Part shown: positions 10,962 through 26,046 of the stretch, piece after piece
How the letters are laid out: every line of letters begins with the position of its first letter
How positions within the stretch are numbered: position 1 is the stretch's first letter
From: Homoserinibacter gongjuensis
GTDB lineage: Bacteria; Actinomycetota; Actinomycetes; Actinomycetales; Microbacteriaceae
Direction of reading: 5' to 3'
Assembly: GCF_030161875.1 (NCBI RefSeq)
Contig: NZ_BSVA01000001.1
Span: 2,294,001-2,358,000 of the forward strand
Length of the DNA: 64,000 nt
Translations under genes and position numbers: made by a program
The notes under the pieces: generated by a model
The model's input: only the letters and a program-made list of their open reading frames with translations
The model's database searches: none
Told to the model about the DNA's origin: nothing

Positions 10962-11031
10962 CAAACGCTGCAGCGGTTGCCCGTGCGCGCCCGAGATGAC
11001 TGGCGCGCCGCGGCAACCGCTGCAGCGTTTG
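10962..11031. repeat. Perfect 20-bp inverted repeat, family B
   Basis: CAAACGCTGCAGCGGTTGCC (10962-10981) pairs exactly with its complement at 11012-11031 across a 30-base loop, TGCGCGCCCGAGATGACTGG in part. It separates the convergent prpC and sugar-permease genes and can serve as a bidirectional terminator. Related half copies flank the gene at 24772-25790. Confidence 0.85.
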
Positions 11032-23028: not shown

Positions 23029-23216
23029 AGCCGACCGCCTACTCTCACTACTCGCCGGTGCCCAGGGATCCGGGTGATCCCCGCTGGTCACACCATCGAC
23101 AAGCCTAACGCGACCGGCGGCGCGGCGCGGACATCCGCGAGGTGTTCGGGGAACCTCTCAGGGAGACGGAACGGGGAACCCGGCCCGGGTGGAGCGGAGG
23201 CGTCTACCGTGGTGTC

Positions 23217-24655
<1,439 letters not shown>

Positions 24656-24706: not shown

Positions 24707-24758
24707 GGGGTGCCAAACGCTGTAGCGGTTGAGGGTGGGCGCCCGATATCGCTGGCGC
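24707..24758. repeat. Half element of family B, left flank of the nuclease-fusion gene
   Basis: GGGGTGCCAAACGCTGTAGC (24707-24726, plus G) is followed by GGGCGCCCGATATCGCTGGCGCG, which resembles the loop of the repeat at 10962-11031. The matching right stem is missing here. An exact inverted copy of the 21-bp stem is found at 25984-26004, beyond the neighbouring gene. Confidence 0.7.
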
Positions 24759-24771
24759 GGCCCGTCGAAAA

Positions 24772-25790
24772 CTAGCGCGCGAGCCGCGCTGCGGCTGTGC
24801 GGAACAGCAGGCTCTGGGTGTGATCGAGGGTTGCCGCCGTGGGCCGCGGCATGTTCGTGGGCAGGCCCGCGCCCCGCAGGATGTCGTAGAACCGCCCGAG
24901 AGGGTGCAGGTCAGCGGGGTCCCAATGCGTGATCCCGCGAACGTCGGGCAACGCGAGAAGGGCCCGATCGCGTTCCTTCTCTCTCCGGAAGACATCGACG
25001 GGGTCACGACCCTTGAGATAGTTCGGGTCCCGGTACTTCGCTCGACCATCGCATTCCCCCGCGTGGCCCAGCTCTGCCCACCAGAGGTCCACACGGCGGA
25101 TGCCGACGCGGGTCGCGAACTCGCGTTGCGGCTCAGGGCGGGGAATCCCAGCATCACTGCGGCGATCCGCGACTCGGTCTCGGGCGGTGACTCCGCCCTG
25201 CCGTCGGCCTCTGCGATCACGGCGCGTGCGCGATCCGTGCCACGGCGGGTTCTCGCATCCGAGAGCCGTGCGATGAGTTCCGAGTGGGTCGTGAGTGCCG
25301 CGCGTCCGAAGGCGGTGCCCAGCGCGGAGTCCGCGATGACCACGCCGTCGACGAACGACAGCTCTCGCGCCAGGTCGATCACCGTCTGCGCGGGTGAGGT
25401 CACCAGGAGGCCGTCGAGTTCGACGATCTCGCGGCCGTCGAACCCGAGCGCGCGGCGGCGAAGGCGACCGCTCGACCGGCCGCCGTGTGCGCGCTCTACC
25501 AGCACATCGACCCGGCGAGGCCAATCGCGGCGGATGCGCATGTTCCAGAGCGCCGCGGCGGCGTGGTGCGAGTACACCTGGGGAGCGGTCACACGCTCCG
25601 CCGTGCGCAGCACGAGTTCACGGTGCTGTCGGTGGCGCTCGACCGCATTCCACTCCGCCGGCAACGCGAACTCGCCGGGTCGCACACGATGAAGCTGACC
25701 CGTGCGGATCAATTGCGCCAGTTGGCGATCGGTGAGGCCTTGGTCGAGCGCTTCCGCCCGAGTGATTCGTCGCAGGTCGATGTCGTCCAT
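24772..25790 (-). CDS. AbiEi-like winged-helix protein fused to a PD-(D/E)xK (DUF559-type) nuclease domain
   Basis: 339 residues after one repair in the run 25140-25143. Residues 1-60 (TRAEALDQGLTDRQLAQLI, GQLHRVRPGEFALP) resemble the winged helix of AbiEi type IV antitoxins. The middle repeats the AbiEi pattern YSHHAAAALW and RRVDVLVER. The C-terminal third has the nuclease-like series PPETESRIA, VGIRRVDLWW, ECDGRAKY and EKERDRALLA, which gives the E, D, ExD and K positions of DUF559/Vsr-like folds. No AbiEii toxin gene is adjacent. An alternative start at 25922 adds 44 residues without family support. Its substrate is unknown. Confidence 0.75.
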
Positions 25791-25983
25791 CGCTGTAGCG
25801 TCTGCCGCGCAGAGCGTCTCGTGGGGCGAGGTGCGCCGATTCGCGAACAGTTTGCGATGCACGGTTCTGTGCAGGGACGGATGCGGTCCCGCGGGCGGTG
25901 CGGTCGCATCCGGTGCCTGCATGGCGCGTAGCGCGCCAGTATTCTGCGCGGCGCGGCAGTTATCACGGGCGCGCTCTGCGAAG

Positions 25984-26046
25984 CGCTACAGCGTTTGGCA
26001 CCCCTCCCGGCCGCACCGGCGAAGCGCTGCCGCGTTTGGCAACCCC
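25984..26046. repeat. Inverted and direct copies of the family B stem, right flank
   Basis: CGCTACAGCGTTTGGCACCC (25984-26003, plus C) is the exact reverse complement of 24707-24727. A second, degenerate copy in the same orientation, GCGAAGCGCTGCCGCGTTTG, follows at 26019-26038. Together with the left flank they bracket the AbiEi-like gene. Confidence 0.7.

Follow-up and report, generated by a model that had tools for sequence, protein, structure and literature searches.

The gene at 24772-25790 (minus strand) of the 64-kb window, by which we mean the whole stretch of DNA analysed, probably encodes an enzyme dedicated to one family of intergenic repeats, which are short and inverted; its AbiEi-like part would bind the repeat core and its nuclease-like part would drive dispersal of the repeats. 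The system is RAYT/REP-like in its genomics without being a member of RAYT/REP. Copies of the repeat bracket the gene, repeat abundance tracks the gene, clades of the protein match types of repeat, and the elements occupy precise sites, most of which are empty in some relatives. The protein carries conserved nuclease-like residues, and no RAYT-type transposase was detected in the nine genomes compared.

The initial annotation described a perfect 21-bp inverted pair around this gene and related it to the repeat at 10962-11031; both descriptions proved correct. The 20-mer GGGGTGCCAAACGCTGTAGC occurs without mismatch at 24707-24726 (+) and 25985-26004 (-), and 100 dinucleotide shuffles gave 0 matches to it. 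The exact arms extend to 21 bp, with the outer arm on the 3′ side of the gene at 24707-24727 (+) and that on the 5′ side at 25984-26004 (-). A third copy of the 20-mer with 3 mismatches (26026-26045) belongs to a diverged further copy of the element end, an 89% identical direct copy at 26019-26045 (-). The kinship with the distant repeat rests on a common pattern of element end and centre, found with 0 mismatches at 10962, 24714-24759 and 25952-25997 and once just beyond the window; this pattern misses other family elements whose centre differs. The matches at 24714-24759 (+) and 25952-25997 (-) are copies of the element, designated M1, that keep the outer end and centre and have a degenerate inner end, while pattern match and alignment identify 10962-11031 as a complete 70-bp M1 element.

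We compared the genome of the window (G000) with eight congeners (G001-G008), giving nine genomes of one genus. In the window, the gene is split between two reading frames, its N part running over 25790-25170 and its C part over about 25149-24772; against the intact genes of G008 and G001 it shows a gap of one base near 25140. Because the adjoining IMPDH-family gene (window about 23142-24655; named guaB1 here) likewise shows a gap of one base against G008, and because the completeness score of the G000 genome is 89.77%, the frame split is likely an assembly error; the G000 assembly may carry many such indel errors. Intact orthologs occupy the same slot in two of the eight congeners, encoding proteins of 347 aa in G008 (L072:4765-5808) and 352 aa in G001 (L065:4465-5523). 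The earlier description of AbiEi-like and nuclease-like parts joined in one chain is supported, but 24772-25790 itself consists of two frames and not one open frame.

The slot has the same layout in all nine genomes, with guaB1, the slot and then two CNNM/CBS genes (near a contig end in G005). In G000, a glyoxalase-like and an AraC-type gene come next as well, and in G001 and G008 the gene is flanked directly by the IMPDH and CNNM/CBS genes. The presence/absence comparison proposed earlier finds the gene at this place in G000, G001 and G008 (3/9 genomes), so it is not common to all relatives. A remnant of 25 aa with 68% identity to the G001 protein (tblastn, E 5e-8) is left in the G002 slot, other small genes sit there in G003 and G005, and the slots of G004, G006 and G007 contain no called gene. 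Such a distribution fits loss as well as gain.

The N part of the protein is AbiEi-like, as Pfam AbiEi_4 matches 10 of 19 family members and PADLOC AbiEi models match all 19; a Leifsonia protein (L007) aligns with residues 69-207 of this part. In the C part, nuclease residues of the E, D, ExD and K type, which the initial annotation had asked about, are conserved across the 19 members (G008 numbering): E203, D234, E245 and G248 are invariant, and D247 and K251 are kept in at least 90%. R207, W237 and R273 are also invariant, with Y252 and E270 at 90% or more. Since the motif residues are invariant or nearly so, catalysis seems to be retained. The relatives L030 and L024 match REase_MTES_1575 (2.2e-8 and 1.4e-5, below the curated cut-off), a Vsr-type nuclease domain in the account of PMC3710099. 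The C-terminal motif E, D, ExD(G)xxK is accordingly like that of Vsr/DUF559/MTES_1575 REase domains. Unlike the protein studied here, those domains have no tie to a repeat family in what PMC3710099 says of them, and the M1 proteins are too diverged for a Pfam match, with no nuclease family of Pfam matching them. The family profile gave no credible match among solved structures, and AlphaFold2 models from two-row alignments reached mean pLDDT values of 37 and 48, too low to be of use.

Genome-wide counts of the M1 core CAAACGCTGYAGCG follow the gene. Exact matches by strand number 26+26 in G000, 34+33 in G001 and 14+14 in G008, that is 52, 67 and 28 in the three gene-bearing genomes; among the other six genomes, G002 and G003 have 1 each and the remaining four have 0. 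The reversed-pattern control gave 0 in all nine genomes. Many matches form inverted pairs with starts 56 apart, which correspond to 70-bp elements, and some pairs are wider. When aligned, 18 G000 elements picked for the 56 start spacing fill exactly 70 columns without gaps, with nearly constant 14-nt ends and parts of the centre and variable spacers. The proposal of a cassette that uses an intergenic repeat is supported: the repeat forms the terminal part of a 70-bp element, one of a mobile-looking family that is abundant or scarce along with the gene. Four longer M1 units of ~210-320 bp (L145, L146, L147 and L163), with intact outer ends and degenerate inner parts, resemble the gene cassette minus its gene. 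L145 and L163 (G000:C1:17300-18300 and 3251876-3252900) have a common identical block of 984 nt, which may be a redundant overlap of contig ends or a recent duplication.

Pairing between the halves of the 18 elements, all from one genome, revealed no covariation: 80.7% of cells were paired compared to 80.6% after shuffling, and the covariation score was equalled or exceeded by 200 of 500 shuffles. Since there is no covariation beyond shuffles, the hairpin is not supported as the selected unit; what is kept at the ends and centre seems to be the sequence rather than the ability to fold, as would suit sites for protein binding. In addition, the palindrome CGCTGYAGCG ends directly at the start codon in all three M1 orthologs compared (25791-25800 in the window, a possible operator), an arrangement suggestive of autoregulation. 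By crude gene calls, eight of 15 elements sit no more than 20 nt from the 3′ end of a gene, and 3/15 overlap a called frame. These three observations also suit another reading, in which the protein is a DNA-binding regulator or organises the chromosome and the repeats are the sites it binds. Its nuclease part would then do something else, and the elements would owe their spread to a transposase or recombination route that differs from this protein and went unrecognised. We regard this reading as rather unlikely: the near-invariance of the nuclease motif speaks for retained catalysis, the exact 70-bp length and the clean empty sites described below point to insertion as a unit, and no other enzyme was seen to track the repeats (PF01797 being the only one searched).

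To describe element sites, we took the guaB1 surroundings, 76-82 kb in each of the nine genomes, where 14 elements amount to nine sites; a script called a site empty when the flanks in another genome were no wider apart than the query plus 20 bp. An empty ortholog exists for seven of the nine sites. At one post-stop-codon site, the element is present in G000, G001 and G008 and as a diverged copy in G002; in the other five genomes, G003-G007, the site is empty, with about 16 extra bases in the case of G006. A further site, lying between the ends of genes, carries an element of another type, M3, in G004 and G005, is empty in six genomes and holds another palindromic stretch in G000. The latter (G000:C1 about 2283 kb) is similar to M11, the repeat type found in G001 that flanks L027. 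One of the two exceptional sites has a terminator-like hairpin in three relatives and ~2.4 kb of other sequence in three. By eye, the orthologs of window 10962-11031 show an M1 element in G000 and G001 as against a terminator-like hairpin in G005-G007, and the orthologous site in G002 contains a different element plus the hairpin; elements may take over transcription termination. Visual inspection of element sites revealed no target-site duplication.

The elements occupy precise intergenic points, and short elements are scattered over the gene-bearing genomes. Whole-cassette hopping was mostly set aside, since the cassettes of the genus sit in common slots. The suggestion of a cassette that moved is accordingly only partly apt, as it suits the scattered short elements better than the gene cassettes of the genus.

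The protein family extends well beyond this locus, with homologs (E <= 1e-20) in 218 of 398 family-level genomes and hits in 61 genera. Of the 23 family loci in the genus, 22 have bracketing inverted repeats that score above the shuffles of the same locus, and the bracketing repeats fall into about eleven kinds when sorted by hand. We applied a uniform bracketing test based on an inverted-repeat score in 600-bp flanks, with thresholds of 20 and 17. Scores of at least 20 were obtained at 41 of 86 distinct family loci compared to 0 of 374 non-family control genes, and scores of at least 17 at 50/86 compared to 3/374; 45 of the 86 family loci scored below 20. The control base of 374 is what remains of 378 genes after removal of four family members by phmmer, three of which themselves scored at least 20.

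Several of these other repeats have genome-wide families of their own. M3 has 18, 49 and 53 matches in its carriers G003, G005 and G007 and 0-3 in five other genomes. G004 has 16 M3 matches, 13 of them with a mismatch; a search with the M1 query, which could have missed one, detected no M3-type gene in this genome, and none lies near its M3 elements in the 35 kb examined. M4 has 24 matches in G004 and 59 in G008, its carriers, 3 in G005 and 0 in the six others. M2 (CGCGAGCGCTACC) has 34 matches in G000, 11 each in the other carriers G003 and G004 and 1-6 in the six others, with 1-9 for the reversed-pattern control; it is clearly expanded only in G000, and not clearly in G003 and G004. In a second genus, the repeat bracketing the G221 gene has 43 matches in G221, 12 in G115 and 0 in 13 other genomes, and copies of it in G115 flank a family gene at C2:857863-858774. 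In G171 and G240, each sampled over 200 kb, the cognate repeat is confined to the gene and one or two further spots, so that these samples show no large repeat family. The whole-genome comparisons took in nine genomes of one genus for four of the repeats and 15 further genomes for one; in them, cognate repeats are usually abundant where the gene is present.

These data bear on the possibility of a single-gene defence or DNA-modification system, which the initial annotation had raised. In this reading, the protein is a restriction-like nuclease, or else an antitoxin or defence protein of the AbiE kind, and the repeats that bracket its gene are there incidentally, as terminators or regulatory hairpins. 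The PADLOC label on all 19 members is in line with it, as is the site where, by eye, three relatives have a terminator-like hairpin and G000 and G001 have an M1 element. We nevertheless hold it to be very improbable. No AbiEii-type nucleotidyltransferase toxin is found among the scanned neighbours (IMPDH, glyoxalase, AraC-type and CNNM/CBS genes in the window), which agrees with the lack of a toxin partner reported earlier, and family genes are bracketed by repeats far more often than control genes are, by repeats that form genome-wide families of their own. Searches of phage and plasmid collections also gave little trace of the family: the L100 protein had no match in 50,697 phage records, a single match to the G008 protein, weak and partial, came from 72,556 plasmid records, and three single-protein scans of viral contigs returned no relative. 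With no toxin partner among the genes scanned and no phage or plasmid link in these searches, the defence or toxin-antitoxin reading was set aside, the PADLOC label being the one feature in favour of a defence role.

In a maximum-likelihood tree of 26 hand-picked proteins (22 from the genus and four others), each of the repeat types M1-M7, which are the types with two or more members, forms one clade. Cassettes of one repeat type often occupy a common slot, and the match between clade and type is in part due to shared slots, that is, to shared descent. A second slot adjoining IMPDH-family genes, between guaB and guaB3, carries a family gene in 8/9 genomes (L073-L079 and L081), with types M5, M6 and M7. 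In the pairs compared, the genes at this slot are 42% (M5-M6) and 40% (M5-M7) identical; for the M5-M6 pair, identity of guaB3 is 95%. Different types at one slot and diverged genes beside a conserved guaB3 indicate that gene and repeat changed together there. The gene also evolves faster than its neighbours elsewhere: the M1 genes of G001 and G008 are 63% identical compared to 88-91% for their neighbours, and at another slot family genes are 66, 77 and 64% identical compared to 93-95%.

The correlation of gene and repeat may come from shared descent, and in its strongest form this would mean that the two are ancestral, were lost together in some species and have no functional relation. Cassettes in common slots are what common descent would leave, and G002, with its gene remnant, keeps a diverged element at one site and 1 exact core match. 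We consider an exclusively genealogical link quite improbable, however, as the association is seen for five different repeats in different subsets of genomes and sister genes at one slot carry different repeats. The remnant and the decayed repeat of G002 also fit dependence of the repeat on the gene.

We therefore return to the reading of a dedicated enzyme and its repeats, for which RAYT/REP systems are the closest parallel in genomic terms. As outlined by Nunvar et al. (PMC2817692), RAYT hallmarks are bracketing inverted REPs, correlation of the gene with its cognate REP, co-evolution of the two and fast evolution of the gene. The present genes are likewise flanked by two inverted repeats (22/23 genus loci and 41/86 family loci), and abundance follows the gene for M1, M3, M4 and the G221 repeat, with M3 in G004, the weak M2 signal in G003 and G004 and the G171 and G240 samples as exceptions. 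Gene and repeat change together, the gene outpaces its neighbours, and the repeats form inverted doublets of fixed length. RAYTs are presented in PMC2817692 and PMC3116915 as relatives of IS200/IS605 (HUH) transposases, whereas the enzyme here has a winged helix and a PD-(D/E)xK-like nuclease; its family matches AbiEi models and, for some members, MTES_1575/DUF559 models, and not the Y1 (HUH) domain. Because PF01797 (Y1 transposase, RAYT type) was found in 0/9 genomes of the genus and in 5/14 control genomes, RAYTs are an unlikely cause of the repeats. REPINs are inverted doublets of similar size in which PMC3116915 describes compensatory changes as common, while none were found in the M1 elements.

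Other known systems share single features. According to the description in PMC3733652, CGTC-tagged REPs are short palindromic intergenic repeats, often present as inverted dimers, like the elements studied here; in the same description, the CGTC super-family apparently lacks a dedicated transposase and no copies flank transposase genes. Here, in contrast, each repeat brackets its own gene, and the M1 ends contain no CGTC or GTAG tag, GTAG occurring only within the core variant CTGTAG. The N-terminal sequence is similar to that of AbiEi antitoxins from type IV toxin-antitoxin systems, but the present protein has a fused nuclease-like part and no recognised toxin partner beside its gene. MITEs are short non-autonomous elements that share their ends with a gene-bearing parent insertion sequence, and TnsA of Tn7 is a PD-(D/E)xK nuclease with a winged helix that acts in transposition. 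The shared ends of short elements and gene cassette and the combination of PD-(D/E)xK and winged helix recall these systems. Unlike MITEs and their parents, the cassette has no DDE or other known transposase and stays in its slots, and no target-site duplication was noticed by eye at the sites inspected. In searches of open-licence PubMed Central, we found no paper that links AbiEi/DUF559/Vsr-like proteins to such repeats.

From these comparisons, we infer the following course of events. The N-terminal AbiEi-like winged helix would recognise the element ends by their palindromic core, CGCTGYAGCG, and probably also the copy of this motif in its own promoter. The C-terminal PD-(D/E)xK-like nuclease would then cut DNA at the paired ends, and host repair or replication would put new 70-bp copies at intergenic points, often beside stop codons. 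The gene itself would stay in its slot between two elements, mostly inherited vertically and sometimes lost, and would change together with its repeat.

On a wider scale, the chances seem to us evenly balanced that actinobacterial genomes house mobile repeats of a distinct class, and that many "AbiEi antitoxin" genes in fact encode winged-helix/PD-(D/E)xK nucleases. Each nuclease would alone be responsible for dispersing one family of short inverted intergenic elements, and would act on double-stranded ends by neither HUH nor DDE chemistry. REP-like short palindromic repeats are widespread in bacteria, and RAYT is the only dedicated enzyme for them that we met in the literature consulted. If our reading is true, a second, unrelated type of enzyme carries the same genomic signature, the relation between gene and repeat would have arisen more than once, and many genes labelled AbiEi antitoxin would be something else. 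The protein and the 70-bp element form a concrete candidate enzyme-substrate pair.
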